Origin: Acidobacteriota bacterium
GTDB lineage: Bacteria; Acidobacteriota; Terriglobia; UBA7540
Direction of reading: 5' to 3'
Length of the DNA stretch: 21,604 nt
Assembly: GCA_003165615.1 (NCBI GenBank)
Contig: PLWR01000239.1
Coordinates: 1-21,604 of the forward strand
Shown here piece after piece: positions 4,051-13,695 of this stretch (positions are counted from its first letter, which is position 1; each line of letters starts with the position of its first letter). The notes under the pieces were generated by a model, which was not told where the DNA came from, did no database searches, and was given only the letters and a program-made list of their open reading frames with translations. Made by a program: the position numbers and the translations under genes.

Positions 4051-5844
4051 ATGAAACATGGCAAGAGAACCCGCGTCCGGATCCTCTACGTCATTCTGCT
4101 GATCCTCATCGGCATCACCGTAGGGCCACTCTGGTTCTACGGATCCAAAATGATGTCGATGAATCGGGAACGGCTGGAGACGCAGGAAAGCGTGCTCCAG
4201 ACGATCACCTCGCAATCGCTCTCCCAGGTTATTTCGCTTTACATGGAGAATTTGAATCAGCAGTTGAAAGAGTTCTTTGACACCGTGGTGCCGCTGGCCA
4301 CGCACATTCCCGCCGCCAAATATTCTTCCGACACAGACCTGCGTGTGGCGTTGGAAGGCTTTGTTGCTGATCGGCCGGCAGTTCTCTACGCCACCGTGCT
4401 GAATAACCAGGCACGAGGAGTGCAGGCGCAGGCGCACAGCTTCAATGCCGCCAGCGATCCCTTTCTGCTCAAATCCCTGGGGGCGGCATTCACCGCCGCG
4501 CAACAGGGGCAGGAGTATCGGAGTAATCCCATCACGGTAATGAGTTCTGCCGGGAATGATGTGGTCATGGTGATGGCGGAACCCCTCAAGCAGAAGAACC
4601 AGTTCCTGGGGATGGTGGCCGCCGTCGTGACCCTCCAGCCCATTACGCAGAAGTTGGAGGATACCAAGGAACTGTCCGGCCTGGAAGCTTATGTGGTGGA
4701 CAACGCCGGACGTCTGGTAACTTCCTACGACCCCGACAAGGTCTCAGGAATGGATATGGTTGCCATCCCTATCGTACAGAAGTTTCTCGATTGGCAGGGG
4801 CGCGCGCGCGTCGCGGAAACGTCTCTCTTCCCCCTGCAAAAGGGCAACCAGACGGTGATGATGCTCGGCACTTACTCGCCCACGCAAAAGTTGGGTTGGG
4901 GTGTGATTGTCCAACGGAAAACGAGCGAGGCCTACGCCACGGTCTCCGAAATGCGCCGCCAGACCTTCCTGTGGGGCTTGTTGTTGGTGGTCCTCAGCCT
5001 GGTGGTCGGTTTTTTTGCCGCCAAGACAATTACTTATCCCATCGACATGCTGACGCGGACGGCGCGCTCCATCGCCCAGCATGACTTCACCCAGCGCGCG
5101 GAGATTCGCAGCCGCACCGAAATTGGCGAACTTGCCTCCACCTTCAACCAGATGGCCGAAGACATTCAGCGCTACATCGGCAATCTGAAGATGGCTTCGG
5201 AGCAGAACCGCCAACTGTTTATCGACTCCATTGAAATGATCGCGGCCGCCGTCGACGCCAAGGACCCCTACACCAAAGGCCATTCCGGACGGGTTTCCCA
5301 ATTCTCCGTCATCCTGGCGCGGGAGATTGGCCTGCCGGAAGAGGAAGTCGATAAGATTCGCATTTCCGCCACCCTGCACGACGTGGGCAAGATTGGCATT
5401 GAAGATCGCGTGCTCAAAAAGCCCGGAGTGCTGACCACCGAAGAATTTGAAATCATGAAGCGCCACACGGTGATGGGCTATGAAATCGTGCGCCAGGTCA
5501 AACAACTCACGGAAATGCTGCCTGGCATTCGCTGGCACCATGAAGCGCTGAACGGCCGCGGCTATCCTGATCACATTACCGGAGATGAACTGCCGCTGAT
5601 GGTGCGCATCATCGCCGTGGCAGATACGTTTGACGCCATCACCACCGACCGGCCTTACCAGGCGGGCTCGGAGTTTCCCAAAGCGCTCGAAATCCTGCGC
5701 AAGCACGTGGGCACCAAGTACGACCCCATCGTAGTGGACGCGATGGAGTCCGCACTGGCCACGGGTAAGCTGGATAAGTTCGAAATGCGGCGGAAAATGG
5801 TGGCGGCCGCTCCCGCTGATCCGGTTGGCACCCCTCGCGCTTAG
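4051..5844 (+). CDS. Membrane sensor HD-GYP phosphodiesterase (Cache-HAMP-HD-GYP)
   Basis: This 597-residue inner-membrane signalling protein probably hydrolyses cyclic di-GMP in response to an extracytoplasmic signal. TM1 lies at about 10-30; a periplasmic Cache-like sensor at about 35-305 ends in the typical LGWGVIVQ segment; TM2 lies at about 306-328. A HAMP domain (330-382, ending TEIGELASTFNQMAEDIQ) leads into an HD-GYP domain at about 390-570. Catalytic signatures are intact: HD at 443-444 within LHDVGKIGI, HHE at 496-498, GYP at 504-506, and ADTFDAITTDRPY. There is no receiver or GGDEF domain. The gene follows its own promoter and is divergent from the bacilliredoxin. A link to the polysaccharide operon 8 kb downstream is possible, since such synthases are often c-di-GMP controlled, but no PilZ or other c-di-GMP receptor is recognised there. 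Confidence 0.93.
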   Translation: MKHGKRTRVRILYVILLILIGITVGPLWFYGSKMMSMNRERLETQESVLQTITSQSLSQVISLYMENLNQQLKEFFDTVVPLATHIPAAKYSSDTDLRVALEGFVADRPAVLYATVLNNQARGVQAQAHSFNAASDPFLLKSLGAAFTAAQQGQEYRSNPITVMSSAGNDVVMVMAEPLKQKNQFLGMVAAVVTLQPITQKLEDTKELSGLEAYVVDNAGRLVTSYDPDKVSGMDMVAIPIVQKFLDWQGRARVAETSLFPLQKGNQTVMMLGTYSPTQKLGWGVIVQRKTSEAYATVSEMRRQTFLWGLLLVVLSLVVGFFAAKTITYPIDMLTRTARSIAQHDFTQRAEIRSRTEIGELASTFNQMAEDIQRYIGNLKMASEQNRQLFIDSIEMIAAAVDAKDPYTKGHSGRVSQFSVILAREIGLPEEEVDKIRISATLHDVGKIGIEDRVLKKPGVLTTEEFEIMKRHTVMGYEIVRQVKQLTEMLPGIRWHHEALNGRGYPDHITGDELPLMVRIIAVADTFDAITTDRPYQAGSEFPKALEILRKHVGTKYDPIVVDAMESALATGKLDKFEMRRKMVAAAPADPVGTPRA

Positions 5845-5851
5845 AAAGCTC

Positions 5852-5868
5852 CTGACACCTGACACCTG
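5852..5868. repeat. Short heptamer array 5 (CTGACAC), single arm
   Basis: CTGACAC, CTGACAC, CTG lies between the HD-GYP stop (5844) and ftsY. It is the same family as the right arm of array 4 but has only about two units and no facing arm. It sits directly before the ftsY -10-like element. Confidence 0.6.
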
Positions 5869-5869
5869 C

Positions 5870-5875
5870 TACAAT
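5870..5875 (+). promoter_or_regulatory. -10-like element just before ftsY
   Basis: TACAAT at 5870-5875 ends 8 nt before the ftsY ATG, so a transcript from it would start at or within a base or two of the start codon. No -35 consensus is seen 16-18 nt upstream, and no Shine-Dalgarno precedes the ATG. A leaderless ftsY mRNA is therefore the simplest reading, but readthrough from the HD-GYP gene is possible. Confidence 0.4.
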
Positions 5876-5883
5876 AGACCCTT

Positions 5884-6855
5884 ATGGTTTCCCTGTTTGG
5901 TTCCGGCAATAAAGAGAAGAAACCCGGCTTCCTGGATCGTCTGAAGCAAGCCGTTGCCTCCACCAAGGCGCAACTGGTTGAACGGATCGAAGAGATTGTC
6001 GAGCAAAAGCCGACCTTGGACGAATCGGTCCTCGACGCTCTGGAAGCGACCCTGATCACCGCCGATCTGGGGGTGCGCACCACGCAGGAAATTCTGGGCC
6101 GCTTGAAACAGCAAATCAGCCAGGGCAAGCTGCGGGAGACGGCGCAATTGCGGCCCGCCGTCGAGCAGGGGATTCTGGCAATTCTGGAAAATCCCGGCGC
6201 GGGCTCCACCACCCCCAAGGCCAAAACGCCACCGCCCGGCATGCCCGCCGTCATTTTTGTGGTGGGGGTGAACGGAGTAGGCAAGACCACCAGCATCGCC
6301 AAGCTGGCCCATTATTTCAAGCAGCAGGACCGCCGCACCCTGCTCTGCGCCGCCGATACCTTCCGCGCCGCAGCCAATGAGCAATTGGAGATTTGGGCCG
6401 GACGCCTGGGCATCGAGATGATCAAACAGAAATCGGGGGCGGACCCGGCGGCGGTTCTCTTCGACGCCCTCGCTGCCGCCAAGACTCGGCATCCCGATGT
6501 GGTCATCGTCGATACGGCGGGCCGCTTGCACACCAAGACCAACTTGATGTCGGAATTGGGAAAGATGTGCCGCATCGCGGCGCGCGAGGTTCCCCATGCC
6601 CCGCATGAAGTGCTGCTGGTCATCGATGCCACAACGGGGCAGAACGGGCTGCAACAGGCGCGGCAGTTTGTTGACTATGGCGGCGCCACGGGCATCATCC
6701 TGACCAAGCTTGACGGCACCGCCAAGGGCGGCGTGGTCATCGCCATCGCGCGCGAACTCGGCCTGCCCATTCAGTTCGTCGGCGTCGGCGAAAAGATCGA
6801 CGACCTGTTGCCGTTTAATCCCCAGGAATTTGTGCAATCGATTTTTGAACCGTGA
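5884..6855 (+). CDS. ftsY: Signal recognition particle receptor FtsY
   Basis: This 323-residue SRP-type GTPase docks ribosome-SRP complexes at the membrane for co-translational insertion. It has the N domain (about 15-105) and G domain (about 120-320), without the long acidic A domain of the E. coli protein. Motifs in order: P-loop GVNGVGKTT (128-136), DTFRAAANEQL (158-168), DTAGR (210-214), TKLDGTAKGG (274-283), and the FtsY-type end GVGEKIDDLLPFNPQEFVQSIF. The last motif and the short A-less N-terminus separate it from Ffh, which would carry a methionine-rich M domain. The ATG at 5884 lies 40 nt after the HD-GYP stop. A hairpin with a T-tract follows at 6925-6955. Confidence 0.97.
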   Translation: MVSLFGSGNKEKKPGFLDRLKQAVASTKAQLVERIEEIVEQKPTLDESVLDALEATLITADLGVRTTQEILGRLKQQISQGKLRETAQLRPAVEQGILAILENPGAGSTTPKAKTPPPGMPAVIFVVGVNGVGKTTSIAKLAHYFKQQDRRTLLCAADTFRAAANEQLEIWAGRLGIEMIKQKSGADPAAVLFDALAAAKTRHPDVVIVDTAGRLHTKTNLMSELGKMCRIAAREVPHAPHEVLLVIDATTGQNGLQQARQFVDYGGATGIILTKLDGTAKGGVVIAIARELGLPIQFVGVGEKIDDLLPFNPQEFVQSIFEP

Positions 6856-6924
6856 TCGCCGCGCGGAGCCCGATGGTGGATAGCCCAAGGATAAGCGCGA
6901 TTGCCTAATGATGGGCATGTCGCG

Positions 6925-7995: not shown

Positions 7996-8313
7996 ATGGA
8001 AGAAGAAAAAGATTGGGACCATGCAGGCGGGAAACTTGCCGAGCTTGGCCCTGAAGCTTTGACCGAAGTCGAACTGCTCTCCATCCTGGTTGCTCCGGGG
8101 ACGCCGGGCAATCCTGCGGAGAAAATTGCTGAAAACATAATAGAGAAATATGGATCAATCGAAAGGTTCGGCGGCCATCCGCTGGAAGAGCTCTACCAGA
8201 TAAAGGGGATGGGCGACGTTAAAATCATCCGTCTCGCTGCGGCCCTGGAGATAGCCCGCCGCGCCGCCTATGGCTTCTTAGATGACGGCAGGAAAAAAAC
8301 CACGAAGAAGTAG
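7996..8313 (+). CDS. Stand-alone RadC/UPF0758 N-terminal (helix-hairpin-helix) domain protein
   Basis: This small 105-residue protein matches the N-terminal domain of RadC (UPF0758): LAELGPEALTEVELLSILVAPGTPG (15-39), then a helical stretch AEKIAENIIEKYGSIERF, then a helix-hairpin-helix with the KGMG hairpin (70-73) and AAALEIARRAA. Full RadC proteins (about 225 residues) continue into a JAB/MPN+ metallo-domain; here that domain is absent and the gene ends. Its last 32 nt overlap the methyltransferase start (ATG 8282), so the two are almost certainly co-translated. The helix-hairpin-helix suggests sequence-independent DNA binding, perhaps as accessory or targeting subunit of the methyltransferase; this role is inference. 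The start could also be TTG at 7975, preceded by GAGGA at 7-nt spacing; the ATG is preferred because the domain begins soon after it. Confidence 0.75.
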   Translation: MEEEKDWDHAGGKLAELGPEALTEVELLSILVAPGTPGNPAEKIAENIIEKYGSIERFGGHPLEELYQIKGMGDVKIIRLAAALEIARRAAYGFLDDGRKKTTKK

Positions 8314-11300
8314 ACTGGGTGAGAAAGCCGCCCGCGCGCCTCGCACTCAATTTGTCCGCATCGAAAGATCAATCTCCAAGTATCTCGAGGAAGTCAAGCC
8401 GATCAAAAGTGAGCCTGCCCGGCTCACCAGACTTACCATCCTATTGGACGAACTATTTGGGGGCCTGGAATTTCCCCTCATTCGTGATTTTCTGGCGGGT
8501 TTTGAAACACGAATTTCCAGCCACGAAGGAGAAAAGTGCCGGGTATTGAGGGGGAGGACCGACGCGCTTTACGGGAATCTGGTTATCGAGTTCGAACGGG
8601 GGGCTAGCGGCTGGCTGCGGGATGCAAAGAAGCAGCTCCAGCGCTACCTTGCGATCTTACGTACAAATGCGGAAACCAAGGATTCCTATTTTATCCCGAT
8701 CGCCAGCGATGGCGTGACATTCGTCGTCTTTGCGCCAAAGGAGAGTGCGAGCGTCTCCACATTAGATTCCGAAGAGGTGGCCATTGAAAAGATCGAGGAA
8801 TTCAATCTCGACAAGCGCCAACCTCTGGATTTTTATTTCTGGTTGGACCGGTACTTTTTGCGCGAGCACAAGCGCGAACCCCACACAGAAAATTTCCTAC
8901 AGGATTTCGGAACGAGTAGCCACGCCTTTCGATACGCAGCTTCGATGTGGCTGGACGTCATCGAGACCGTCCGCACGCAAAGCGATTTCAAAGTCATTTA
9001 TGACAATTGGCGGAAATACCTCCGAATCGCGTACGGTACCGCGGTGGGGGACGAAGACCTTTTCGTTCGCCACACTTTTCTTGCTACGTTGGCGAAGCTG
9101 ATTGCGTACACCCGCATAACGAACGCCCAGTCTGCGCCCGAGGAAAATGAGACGAACGAGATTATCCAAGGAACCTTCTTCGAAAAACAACGAATCATGA
9201 ATTTCCTGGAAGAGGATTTCTTCTCTTGGGTAGGGCGTGCTCCCGTGTTGGCGATAACGCAGCGAATCGTCCATCGTTTGATCAATTTGCTTTTTACTTA
9301 CCAACTGCGTGAACTGTCAGAGGACGTTATGAAAGAACTCTACCAGCAGTTGGTCGATCCGAAAGACCGGCACGATTTGGGTGAGTATTACACCCCGGAT
9401 TGGCTTGCAGCCCGCATGTGCAATTCGCTCTTAAGCAAGGAAGGTGAGGATGCGGTTCTCGATCCCTCTTGCGGCTCGGGAACATTCCTTTATCAGGTCA
9501 TCCAACACAAGAAAAAGCATCTGCCTGCAACGCGAGCGTCGATGGAAAAGATCCTGAGGACGGTCGTGGGGATTGACATTCACCCTTTGGCCGTCATCGT
9601 GTCGAAAATGAATGTCCTCTTAGCTCTCGGCGACCTGTTCGATAAGCGCGCCGGGTCAATTTCGATTCAAGTCTATTTGGCGAATTCGATTCGCCATCCT
9701 GTCAAGCAACCCTACTTAGGCAACGGCGGCGTGCCCGCCGAAAGGGTGGAAGTAAACAAGCGCGAGGTACTTATACCGGACGCTGTGCTCGCTAGCGCCG
9801 CCAACCTGGATGCGGCGGTGCGGGTAGCGGATGAGTTTGCCAAGTCTCACCGGCATGACGAGCATCTCAAGACCGAAGATTTTCTGAGCCACGCGCGTCA
9901 GAGGTCGCCTGAACTGGCCAAGTCTTCAGATGTTCTCCTCATGCTGTTCGATCTCGCGAAACTCTTGCACGAATTCATCCGTAAGCCCGAAGACACCATC
10001 TGGGCTTATATCCTTAAGAACCAATACAAACCGACTTTCTTAACTAAACAATTTGATGTCGTTATTGGCAACCCGCCCTGGCTTTCTTTTCGATTTGTAG
10101 AAAAGGGCGAGTACCAGGACTATTTGAAGCGTTTGATTGTGAAAGAATGCGGGTTGCTTGAGGGAGCAGGACACCTGATTGCGCATCTCGAACTGGGGAC
10201 ACTCTTTTTTGTGAGGTGCGCAACCTTATATTTGAAACCAGCGGGCAAGATCGGCTTCGTGTTGCCGCGCAGTATCTTCAGCGCCGACCAGCACGATCGC
10301 TTCCGGAGGTCTTACGTCTCTGGCAGAACGACCCTAACCGAAGTCTGGGACCTGGAGGAGGTCTCACCGCTTTTTAACGTTCCCGCCGCGGTCGCTTTTG
10401 GCGATTTGAAGAGCGACCGCGAAAAGGCCCTGCCGGGAGAAATCCTTTCCGGACATTTAAAGAGGAAGAATGCCTCACTGAAAGAGGCGAATTCCGATTT
10501 GAAAACCGAGGCGACAGAATTTCACGTTGTCCAACAGGGCAAACGAACCTTTCTTAGCACCAGCCGCAGAAAGATTTCAGCTCAGAGAAGCTATTACCAG
10601 CCCTATTTCAAGGAAGGCGCCACGATCGTCCCTCGAAACTTCTGGTTTGTAGATTTCAAATTTTATCCGAACCTTGGCATTTCGACGACCGAACCGCTGG
10701 TGGTGACAGACCCCCGCGCCGAAGCAGAGGCGAAGGCTCCGTACAAAGGCACGCAATTCGAGGGTCCTGTCGAAGCTGATTTTCTTTACGCGACGCTCCT
10801 CTCCACCGACCAGCTCCCCTTTGGGCATTTCGATATTCGGCCCGTGGTTCTGCCATTGATTGAGGATGCGCAAGGCTACCACCTTCTGGATATTGAACAG
10901 GCTCGTAACAAGGGATTCCTGGGCATGGCCGAGTGGCTAAAGCGCGCTCAAGAAACCTGGGAAAAGAAGCGCCGCGAGAAGGCCAAACGAATGAATGTCT
11001 GGCAACGGCTGGATTTTCAAAGGGGAATTACCGACCAAGACCCAAAGGCGAGGTATGTTGTGTTGTTCGCCATGTCTGCAACCTATATGTGCGCTAATGT
11101 GGTCGAGAGAGGTCGGGATGTAGTCCAGGTTGGCCAGCAGCAGATATCCCTACAGAGTTTCATTGCCGACTACAAAACATTTTCCTTTGAAACAAGTGAG
11201 AAGGAAGAGGCTCACTATTTAGCTTCAGTGTTAAATTCACCTCTTGTCGATGAGTTGTTAAAGCCGATGCAGTCTCGGGGCCTGTGGGGTCCGCGCGATA

Positions 11301-11545
11301 TCTGCAAGAAGGTTCTGGAACTTCCAATTCCGGAATTCAGCGCCAAAAACCCGAAGCACATGAAGCTCGCGGAGATGGCGGAAGCGTGTGCGGAAAAAGT
11401 CAAGGAAATGGTTCCTGACCTCAGGAAGCTTTTCGAAGATGTCCGGGGACCTCATGCCATAGGTCGCGCGCGGACTGCCGTCCGCAATGCTCTTTCTTAT
11501 GAGCTCGCCGAAATCGACTCCCTTGCAAAAGAAATCTTGAAATAA
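8282..11545 (+). CDS. Large Eco57I/type IIG-like N6-adenine DNA methyltransferase with nuclease-like N-terminus
   Basis: This 1087-residue protein probably combines DNA modification, target recognition and perhaps cleavage in one chain. Residues about 85-150 resemble a PD-(D/E)xK fold: RGRTD (D94), VIEFE (E103, E105), then the helix AKKQLQRYL. A helical region (about 190-350) leads to GEYYTP (367-372), motif I DPSCGSGTFL (394-403) and catalytic NPPW (597-600), the gamma-class adenine methyltransferase signature. The C-terminal ~450 residues resemble TaqI/Eco57I target-recognition regions, with LNSPLVDELL and PRDICKKVLELPIPEF near the end. It overlaps the RadC-like gene by 32 nt. No separate restriction or specificity gene is adjacent. 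Composition is visibly less GC-rich than neighbouring genes, suggesting transfer. Methyltransferase identity is firm; restriction activity is uncertain because the usual catalytic lysine after E103 is a glutamate. Confidence 0.88.
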   Translation: MTAGKKPRRSRLGEKAARAPRTQFVRIERSISKYLEEVKPIKSEPARLTRLTILLDELFGGLEFPLIRDFLAGFETRISSHEGEKCRVLRGRTDALYGNLVIEFERGASGWLRDAKKQLQRYLAILRTNAETKDSYFIPIASDGVTFVVFAPKESASVSTLDSEEVAIEKIEEFNLDKRQPLDFYFWLDRYFLREHKREPHTENFLQDFGTSSHAFRYAASMWLDVIETVRTQSDFKVIYDNWRKYLRIAYGTAVGDEDLFVRHTFLATLAKLIAYTRITNAQSAPEENETNEIIQGTFFEKQRIMNFLEEDFFSWVGRAPVLAITQRIVHRLINLLFTYQLRELSEDVMKELYQQLVDPKDRHDLGEYYTPDWLAARMCNSLLSKEGEDAVLDPSCGSGTFLYQVIQHKKKHLPATRASMEKILRTVVGIDIHPLAVIVSKMNVLLALGDLFDKRAGSISIQVYLANSIRHPVKQPYLGNGGVPAERVEVNKREVLIPDAVLASAANLDAAVRVADEFAKSHRHDEHLKTEDFLSHARQRSPELAKSSDVLLMLFDLAKLLHEFIRKPEDTIWAYILKNQYKPTFLTKQFDVVIGNPPWLSFRFVEKGEYQDYLKRLIVKECGLLEGAGHLIAHLELGTLFFVRCATLYLKPAGKIGFVLPRSIFSADQHDRFRRSYVSGRTTLTEVWDLEEVSPLFNVPAAVAFGDLKSDREKALPGEILSGHLKRKNASLKEANSDLKTEATEFHVVQQGKRTFLSTSRRKISAQRSYYQPYFKEGATIVPRNFWFVDFKFYPNLGISTTEPLVVTDPRAEAEAKAPYKGTQFEGPVEADFLYATLLSTDQLPFGHFDIRPVVLPLIEDAQGYHLLDIEQARNKGFLGMAEWLKRAQETWEKKRREKAKRMNVWQRLDFQRGITDQDPKARYVVLFAMSATYMCANVVERGRDVVQVGQQQISLQSFIADYKTFSFETSEKEEAHYLASVLNSPLVDELLKPMQSRGLWGPRDICKKVLELPIPEFSAKNPKHMKLAEMAEACAEKVKEMVPDLRKLFEDVRGPHAIGRARTAVRNALSYELAEIDSLAKEILK

Positions 11546-12022: not shown

Positions 12023-12030
12023 AGGTGATT

Positions 12031-13695
12031 ATGCGGAAATCACTCTCTCTCCTCCTGGCGCTTGTGGGACTCTTTGATTCCCTCTACCTTCTCTGGATCT
12101 ACACTTCCCCCACCCGGCTCATGGTCTGCCTGGGGACGGGGTGCGACACGGTGCGCCTTAGCGCGTATTCCCACCTCTGGGGCGTGCCCATGCCGCTGTT
12201 TGGTGCGGCGGGCTACGCGCTGGTGGCCTTGCTCATCATTGCCGAATCGCTTGTACCTCCGCCGCTGGCCATCGAGGTCCGCTATGCGCTGGCGGGGGCG
12301 ACAGGATTTGGATTTCTCTTTTCGCTGTACCTGGAATATCTGCAAGGATTCGTGATTCATGCCTTCTGCGCGTGGTGCGTGACCTCGGGCGTGGTGATGA
12401 CCGCGCTCTGCGGGCTGGCCATCTATAACGTCCTCCGCCCCGCGCTGGAAACCGATGCTCCCGCCCAGCTTGCCCAGGTGCGCAGCTACTTCGTGGTCAG
12501 CGTGGCAGCGCTGTTGATGGGTGTTCCCGCTTTCTACCAGCTTTCCACCCATGGGGAAGCCCCTCCGCCACCGCCCCCTGCCCCGAATGAGACCACGGCG
12601 GAGAAGCTGGTGAGGCCCGACAGCCACGCCACGGGCAATCCGGGCGCGGCCGTGACCGTGGTGGAGTTTGGAGATTTCGAATGCCCCGTTTGCGGACGCG
12701 AGGAGGCGGTGGCCAAAGAGATTCGCGCCAAGTATGCCCATCAGATCCGCTTCGTATTCCGGCAGTTCCCTCTCATTCATACCCACCCTTTTTCCGAGCG
12801 CATGGCGGAAGCCTCAGAGTGCGCAGCCGAACAAGGTAAATTCTGGGAAGCGGTGGACGAGATTTACTCACGGCAAGGCGATGCAAGCGATGACGGATTG
12901 AGGCGCGATGCCGCCGAAATCGGTTTGGATCCGGCCAAATTCCATCAGTGCCTGACGAGCGGCGCTGAGGCAGCGAGGGTGACCCGCGATCGCGAGGATG
13001 GCAAGGCGCTGGGGGTGAATGCCACGCCCACATTTTTCATCGGCCACCAGGTAGTATCGGGAGCGCCGGATGAGGAAGAGTTTTCGCGACACATTGAACA
13101 GGAACTGGCGGCGCCGGGAACCGGGTTGTCCCCCCCTACCGCGCTGCCCACGGCCCCGGCGTCCGCCGTCCCCTCCACGCCCGCCCCAGCGGAGCATCCA
13201 GCCCCATCCCCAACCCCTTCCCAGAAAGCTGCGCCCGCCCCAGCCAACACCGAACCCGCCACCTCGCCATTCGGATTACTTGGACAAGGCCCGGGAGGAG
13301 TGCTGTCAAGTTTCCAAACCAGCGTGACGTGCAGCGAAAGCGATGCCGCCAAGAAGCAACCTGCCTTGATAAGCACCAGCCAATTGCGGCAACTCCTTGC
13401 GGGAAATTCCAAGCCGCTGTTTGTGGACGTGCGGTCCGCCAAAGAATATGCGGCGGGACAAATTCCCGGGGCGGTCAATATTCCCGTGGACAACATGCCG
13501 CAGCGTTGGAGCACCCTGCCCAAAGACCGCGTCATCATTTTTTATGAGAGCGGACAATCCTCCGGGGATATTTGCGCCTCCGGCCGCGCGGCAGGGCGGA
13601 TTCTGCTGGAGCACGGCTACGCCTTCGATCAGGTCAAGGTGTATCAGGATGGCCTGGCCGGTTGGCAGAAGCCGGAAATAGACACCCGCAAGTAA
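12031..13695 (+). CDS. VKOR-DsbA-rhodanese fusion protein (oxidative protein folding)
   Basis: A 554-residue membrane protein. Residues about 1-140 are a vitamin K epoxide reductase domain: helices at about 4-26, 54-76, 82-106 and 113-138, loop cysteines C33 and C38 (CLGTGC), and quinone-site CAWC (C113, C116). A further helix (about 152-172) leads to a DsbA-like thioredoxin domain with CPVC (C218, C221) and cis-proline in NATPTFF (P333). After a linker rich in Pro and Ala (about 360-415) comes a rhodanese-like domain (VDVRSAKEYAAGQIPGAVNIP). VKOR reoxidises the thioredoxin module using quinone, so one chain can introduce disulfides into exported proteins. The expected rhodanese cysteine in the FYESG loop is missing, but C515 (DICASGRAA) lies just after. 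A GTG at 12025 is an alternative start. VKOR-thioredoxin fusions are known; the added rhodanese is unusual. Confidence 0.9.
   Translation: MRKSLSLLLALVGLFDSLYLLWIYTSPTRLMVCLGTGCDTVRLSAYSHLWGVPMPLFGAAGYALVALLIIAESLVPPPLAIEVRYALAGATGFGFLFSLYLEYLQGFVIHAFCAWCVTSGVVMTALCGLAIYNVLRPALETDAPAQLAQVRSYFVVSVAALLMGVPAFYQLSTHGEAPPPPPPAPNETTAEKLVRPDSHATGNPGAAVTVVEFGDFECPVCGREEAVAKEIRAKYAHQIRFVFRQFPLIHTHPFSERMAEASECAAEQGKFWEAVDEIYSRQGDASDDGLRRDAAEIGLDPAKFHQCLTSGAEAARVTRDREDGKALGVNATPTFFIGHQVVSGAPDEEEFSRHIEQELAAPGTGLSPPTALPTAPASAVPSTPAPAEHPAPSPTPSQKAAPAPANTEPATSPFGLLGQGPGGVLSSFQTSVTCSESDAAKKQPALISTSQLRQLLAGNSKPLFVDVRSAKEYAAGQIPGAVNIPVDNMPQRWSTLPKDRVIIFYESGQSSGDICASGRAAGRILLEHGYAFDQVKVYQDGLAGWQKPEIDTRK

Follow-up and report, generated by a model that had tools for sequence, protein, structure and literature searches.

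A RadC N-Terminal Half Overlaps a Type IIG-like Methyltransferase

The window analyzed here, a stretch of 21,604 nucleotides (nt) from an Acidobacteriota bacterium (contig PLWR01000239.1), contains a short gene for the N-terminal half of RadC (RadC-N) that overlaps the gene of a large adenine methyltransferase, referred to as the family a enzyme. The pair is best classed with the restriction-modification-like enzymes, RadC-N being a probable new accessory protein. The features of the locus are as follows (aa, amino acids).

7996..8313, plus strand: standalone RadC N-terminal half (UPF0758_N, helix-hairpin-helix), 105 aa, without an MPN/JAB domain
8282..8313, plus strand: overlap of both reading frames, 32 nt
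8282..11545, plus strand: family a enzyme, a type IIG-like adenine methyltransferase with a predicted N-terminal nuclease domain, 1087 aa
8306..8341, plus strand: N-terminal tail motif RSRLGEKAARAP, residues 9–20, which RadC-N is proposed to dock on; the window's copy matches the motif weakly
8345..8926, plus strand: predicted PD-(D/E)XK-type nuclease domain, residues 22–215, from conserved residues, a structure model and structural matches
8561..8596, plus strand: predicted catalytic residues D94 ... E103-x-E105, from alignment conservation
9299..10381, plus strand: gamma-class N6-adenine methyltransferase core, residues 340–700, with DPSCGSGTF and NPPW motifs
10382..11542, plus strand: C-terminal region, residues 701–1087, presumed target-recognition domain by analogy to type IIG enzymes

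The original prediction, made from the sequence letters, had described a RadC N-terminal half lacking MPN and overlapping an Eco57I-like methyltransferase with a nuclease-like N-terminus. The short reading frame and the overlap are both present, and the small protein matches UPF0758_N (PF20582) with E = 1.6e-12 and 47.8 bits, above the Pfam cut-off of 27.1. No MPN/JAB domain was found in it by Pfam, and the reading frame ends after residue 105. The start at ATG 7996 gives 105 aa and an alternative TTG 21 nt earlier gives 112 aa; lengths of 105–106 aa are common among the listed homologues. The NCBIfam RadC models NF000642 and TIGR00608 cover residues 20–98 alone and score far under their cut-offs (60.5 against 180 and 45.8 against 133.85 bits), so that the protein does not count as a whole RadC. 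No recognition-domain match was found by Pfam. A search of the PDB with the RadC-N profile gave 20 weak matches, with topoisomerase V repeats at the top, several helix-hairpin-helix proteins and some unrelated ones. By tblastn, the RadC-N of locus L003 had no match in phage records and matched one RadC (37.5%) on plasmids. The N-terminal half of RadC has, to our knowledge, no settled role.

The description of the larger protein also stands. It matches N6_Mtase and Eco57I in Pfam, and its best PADLOC match is REase_MTase_IIG (4.8e-83). Within the nuclease domain, the residues of note are E75, D94, E103, E105, Q118 and Y122. D94 and E103 are kept in 87 of 87 aligned family a members; position 105 is E in 76 and K in 11. 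The nuclease-domain alignment comprises 77 of the 84 extracted loci and three proteins. The structural matches of the nuclease-domain model are headed by DrdV and BpuSI, and by residues and predicted fold together the N-terminus is a putative PD-(D/E)XK-type cleavage domain. The methyltransferase motifs are almost invariant across the aligned members, and motif I and NPP[YFW] are both present, as expected for the gamma-class adenine methyltransferase of a type IIG enzyme. Residues 701–1087 are poorly modeled, and the model of the whole enzyme, of low confidence (mean predicted local distance difference test, pLDDT, of 57), served as support alone. A search of PDB sequences with the enzyme profile returned four chains, each of them a methyltransferase subunit from a type I or similar system.

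Standalone RadC-N Is Linked to Methyltransferases in Several Phyla

Linkage was examined from both sides. On the enzyme side, genome contigs were scanned with the enzyme alignment and the best 80 of 532 loci were taken. With a standalone RadC-N profile, a RadC-N partner was found in 16 of 81 sources including the window, always on the same strand and upstream. RadC-N goes with the closest enzymes, being present in 15 of 18 loci at ≥40% identity. At this identity L009 and L060, in which no RadC-N was seen, start ≤30 nt from a contig end, and L025 has upstream sequence with neither RadC-N nor the N-terminal tail described below. None of the 62 loci at ≤39% identity has RadC-N within the available flanking DNA. 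The sources of the pair are Acidobacteria, Chloroflexota, Nitrospirota, Planctomycetota, WOR-3 and Neomarinimicrobiota records, and one viral-classed contig of 53 kilobases carries it in two scans (L081, IMGVR_UViG_3300006945_000001).

Starting from RadC-N, five phylum scans took in 297 + 301 + 294 + 245 + 147 = 1284 genomes. Only a part of the candidates in each genome was scored, and in the last three scans matches were listed at E ≤ 1e-22 alone. Scores in the first two scans drop from 130 bits for standalone genes to 73 bits, where nearly all frames are of full-length RadC size; the last three include some matches at 81–108 bits, and the gap between standalone and full-length is less clean there. 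In all, 42 standalone genes were counted, with the absence of MPN judged by frame length. The count leaves aside four planctomycete RadC-like genes at 81–85 bits (G766, G736, G758 and G897, in whose surroundings, L210–L213, the A1 profile matches nothing), along with a RadC-N remnant in G1137 and, in G003, two matches that are short and partial. It includes G932, whose score of 84.5 bits overlaps those of the excluded four, as a 220-aa frame with two RadC-N domains followed by a family c methylase.

Downstream of these 42 genes lies a family a enzyme in 14 cases, a family b enzyme in 13 and a family c enzyme in four. Another methyltransferase is found farther downstream in three (DrmMI-like in L217, ISP-type in L218 and a small one identified by eye in L219), and in five the contig ends before any partner. 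Thus 31 of the 37 genes with readable downstream sequence lead to a family a, b or c enzyme. In all 31 pairs RadC-N is upstream on the same strand, and in five of them other genes intervene. Without nine family a cases already known from the enzyme-side search (G001–G007, G469 and G750, five of which were scan centers), 22 of 28 are linked (a, 5; b, 13; c, 4). By comparison, a family a or b profile match, and a weak one, occurred within the 1.5-kilobase flanks of 1 of 58 full-length RadC loci; these were the best-scoring such loci and not a random set, and family c was not sought there. A lack of conserved linkage, which the original prediction had named as its refutation, is therefore not what was found.

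The overlap had been taken to imply co-translation and joint function. Because the pair recurs in several phyla, the overlap in the window is more than chance, and the partnership itself is conserved. Close coupling is not essential, since several loci have intervening genes while the enzyme keeps its tail; elsewhere the overlap ranges from a few to a few dozen nt, or the two genes are set apart by a short gap or by other genes, including toxin-antitoxin genes. Co-translation through the overlap was thus set aside as the key to the system.

A Short N-Terminal Tail Accompanies RadC-N in Two Enzyme Families

Family a enzymes with a RadC-N partner carry an N-terminal tail, [KR][ST]K[LI]xEKxxR[IMVF]P[DE] or a variant; those without RadC-N begin at the core. 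A similar tail (SKIKGKxxRIPSPF and variants) is found on family b enzymes with RadC-N and is missing from their relatives without it. It is short and basic and sits directly before the nuclease domain. For the motif comparisons, 156 N-terminal records were reduced to 113 distinct ones. Among family a enzymes, 16 of 22 beside a RadC-N gene and 0 of 60 lacking one exceeded the 99% shuffle level with the motif built from family b (12 of 14 tails, without L165 and L167). L001, missed by the distance filter, was assigned to the positives by hand (176 bits), and the comparison leaves out five family a loci with <600 nt of upstream sequence, two of which, L009 and L060, are tailed by eye. Conversely, the motif built from family a (20 of 22 tails, without L013 and L228; the tail of L013 is degenerate) distinguishes 14 family b enzymes from another 12 (p = 1.4e-5), one of the 14 having a RadC-N remnant alone and one of the 12 having no upstream sequence.

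Two other origins of the tail were considered. Among 21 family a tails, third codon positions are 34% identical, against 63% for first and 76% for second positions, and third-position divergence over 29 tails (21 from family a, 8 from family b) rules out a DNA element. An origin of the tail from the linker that joins the two halves of RadC is not supported by 53 full-length RadC linkers, of which 5 exceeded the 99% level with the family b motif and none with the family a motif; the medians differed slightly, if significantly, for the former (−8.0 versus −10.0, p = 1.9e-5) and not for the latter.

The tail is kept in spite of intervening toxin-antitoxin genes in L004, L006, L011 and L225, where these were identified by Pfam (L004:405-1177, L006:6512-7997 and L011:5978-6232 in the first three), and in L215 and L222, where they were identified by eye. 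The types assigned by Pfam are MNT-HEPN, PIN, ParE and HicAB. Several lineages have such genes at the junction of RadC-N and methyltransferase, which thus resembles a landing site; in L216 they follow RadC-N and the contig ends before any enzyme. A protein of ~183–203 aa with the stretch MYAVIEKN..LHIS.A.FY.M also recurs near RadC-N genes (L006:4545-5156, L215, L218 and L221), and its copy in L006 has no Pfam match.

RadC-N Partners Belong to at Least Three Enzyme Families

The partners of RadC-N are at least three methyltransferase families, not one enzyme. Family b (~940–1160 aa) is IIG-like by PADLOC and has the canonical PD ... ExK in all eight members compared (PD63 ... E80-x-K82). Family c proteins (~850–870 aa) are N6/N4-type methylases whose match in PADLOC is PglXI-like, and no nuclease domain was found by Pfam in the four proteins scanned. 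Near the C-terminus of family c, a D ... F-E-x-E stretch is invariant in these four (D733 ... E747-x-E749, e.g., L235:4888-7431), which, judged by eye, could be a further nuclease motif. The RadC-N proteins beside family c are divergent (84–122 bits in the four cases), and in L224:1360-2013 a tandem double RadC-N protein precedes the family c methylase. In L222 (oriented 4288-6917), the family b enzyme is in two reading frames and apparently broken.

Along well-supported branches of the RadC-N tree, the partner label changes at least twice for family a and at least five times for family b, several of the latter being changes relative to rows with no partner or an unreadable one. The RadC-N proteins of L006 (partner a) and L214 (partner b) are identical at 88 of 97 positions, against a median of 61% among family a partners, and their enzymes align in pieces alone, with 27% over 136 residues of the methyltransferase core. 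Different enzymes thus adjoin nearly the same RadC-N.

In that tree (47 standalone and 13 full-length sequences), the standalone proteins form a clade separate from full-length RadC with support of 100/99; the alignment has 103 columns, and many forks are weak. Residue preferences differ as well: K13 is found in 47 of 47 standalone sequences, R79 in 44, V75 in 41 and I77 in 40, where full-length RadC has mostly R, Q, A and A, in the same order. Both forms occur together in five genomes. A standalone RadC-N relative appears in a Thermoplasmata archaeon record (P0106), so the family may reach archaea.

Proposed Mechanism

Standalone RadC-N looks like a shared, undescribed working part of restriction-type systems. 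We consider it probable, at roughly 0.55, that restriction-modification-type enzymes have in it a dedicated accessory subunit, docked on the tail beside the nuclease as a DNA-handling clamp. RadC-N would bind the short tail directly before the PD-(D/E)XK domain and, once docked, would place its helix-hairpin-helix, as a clamp on the DNA backbone, close to where the enzyme cuts. Its hold on the DNA would be independent of sequence and would promote or license cleavage, and target recognition would stay with the C-terminal region of the enzyme. A docking tail so short would be portable, and enzymes of different kinds could be exchanged beside a resident RadC-N gene. Helix-hairpin-helix domains usually grip the DNA backbone, which makes a clamp or licensing role in cleavage the most likely one. 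Over 22 pairs, the divergence of RadC-N correlates with that of the nuclease domain (r = 0.69) and the methyltransferase (r = 0.75), against r = 0.29 for the C-terminal region (p = 0.006). Taken with the position of the tail, the correlations favor docking of RadC-N on the tail and a role tied to the catalytic body more than to the choice of target. A broader proposal is more tentative: standalone RadC-N may be a general, exchangeable adaptor of prokaryotic nuclease-methyltransferases, with a portable docking peptide, swapping of enzymes and toxin-antitoxin genes often at the junction.

A number of observations weigh against the docked clamp. In the nuclease-domain model, residues 73–86 and 90–96, which hold E75 and D94, have pLDDT <50, and plain Foldseek with this model gave no match at E ≤ 0.001. 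Six of the 22 family a tails fall below the 99% level, including that of the window (2.8 bits), and are outscored by L055 (5.5 bits), which has no RadC-N; in addition, many short N-termini were padded, which lowers the scores of enzymes without RadC-N and widens the gap. With the motif derived from family a, just 6 of the 14 family b tails reach ≥15 bits. No recognizable tail was found in family c, so that docking on a tail is not the whole story. The first 160 residues of families a and b match marginally (E = 0.002); the two may be distantly related over this N-terminal part, and if so they are not fully independent evidence. The joint presence of tail and RadC-N may also reflect shared ancestry within each family, and the co-divergence test ignores species relatedness. 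In G1137, RadC-N is reduced to a 47-aa remnant (L259:894-1034), yet the family b enzyme downstream of it has retained the tail. Finally, three of the 42 RadC-N genes (L223, L226 and L229) have no methyltransferase nearby; L226 has a ResIII helicase (Pfam).

Alternative Explanations

The main rival to the clamp or licensing role, itself rather unlikely, is a regulatory or inhibitory one, in which RadC-N binds DNA or the enzyme and checks expression or nuclease activity, like type II controllers or an antitoxin. A small first gene that often overlaps the enzyme gene would suit such a function, as would the toxin-antitoxin genes at the junction, and the tail could be used to inhibit the enzyme just as well as to activate it. 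Known type II controller proteins are helix-turn-helix proteins, however, and the RadC-N domain is helix-hairpin-helix. A strict antidote is further at odds with L259, where the enzyme persists with a RadC-N remnant alone, which would not be allowed if that enzyme is active.

Slightly less probable again is that RadC-N aids methylation and not restriction, giving processivity or substrate choice to what would mainly be orphan-type methyltransferases. The near-invariant methyltransferase motifs and the absence of a Pfam nuclease domain from the four family c proteins are consistent with this. The conserved nuclease residues of families a (D94 and E103) and b (PD63 ... E80-x-K82) and the position of the tail at the nuclease end argue for a role in cleavage instead, and the invariant family c stretch could be a nuclease too.

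It is very improbable that RadC-N is a fragment drifting through defense-rich regions with no functional tie to methyltransferases. The three genes without a methyltransferase nearby and the nearly identical RadC-N proteins before different enzymes would fit hitch-hiking, but not the linkage in 31 of 37 cases (22 of 28 without those previously known) against 1 of 58 for full-length RadC, the uniform strand and order, the tail that accompanies RadC-N in two families, or the correlated divergence. A recent truncation of full-length RadC in this genome, which the original prediction had listed as a possible refutation and to which the NCBIfam matches and the label DNA repair protein RadC given to homologues by some sources might point, is refuted by the tree, with its 100/99 split; the distinct residues and coexistence of the two forms also count against it, and its probability is negligible.

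Comparison with Known Systems

Type IIG enzymes are single chains made of a PD-(D/E)XK-type domain, a helical part, a gamma-class methyltransferase and a C-terminal region, according to PMC3874165. The family a enzyme shares this domain order with Eco57I, BpuSI, MmeI and DrdV, and differs in having a separate RadC-N protein, a tail before the nuclease domain and mostly E in place of the canonical K as third motif residue. The partner proteins named in its passages on type IIG systems are extra methyltransferases or S subunits. BcgI-like systems (RM plus S) are likewise two-protein arrangements around a fused nuclease-methyltransferase; RadC-N differs in its small size, in the lack of a recognition-domain match and in its weak co-divergence with the C-terminal region. 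From RadC/UPF0758, standalone RadC-N shares the N-terminal helix-hairpin-helix half, and is set apart by the missing MPN/JAB half, its own clade and its residue preferences. BREX PglX and MADS mad2 have a related methyltransferase core, and PglX is among the top structural matches of the family a enzyme; the enzyme scores far below the curated cut-offs (28.3 against 400 and 65.5 against 720 bits) and is not a member of either, and no other BREX or MADS genes were recognized by eye in the list of open reading frames of the window.

The original prediction had regarded the combination as an unrecognized system, and no description of the pair was found in the open-licence papers searched on RadC, UPF0758 and type IIG. 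It is not described in passages on RadC in PMC12458937, PMC5512222 and PMC10164562, or in those on type IIG enzymes in PMC3874165. The setting of standalone RadC-N suggests a function in DNA restriction or modification. Should it prove a required subunit, annotation pipelines have been labeling one half of a restriction system as DNA repair, and some enzymes regarded as single-chain may have been assayed without their partner.

Neighboring Genes in the Window

The neighbors of the pair are ordinary-looking chromosomal genes, with CinA-, PlsY-, GpsA-, HD-GYP- and FtsY-like genes upstream. FtsY, a HAD protein and a VKOR-DsbA-rhodanese fusion were named by Pfam, and the remainder by eye from the list of open reading frames. 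The fusion protein, VKOR followed by a DsbA-like thioredoxin and a rhodanese, is encoded downstream of the pair at 12025-13695 of the window.

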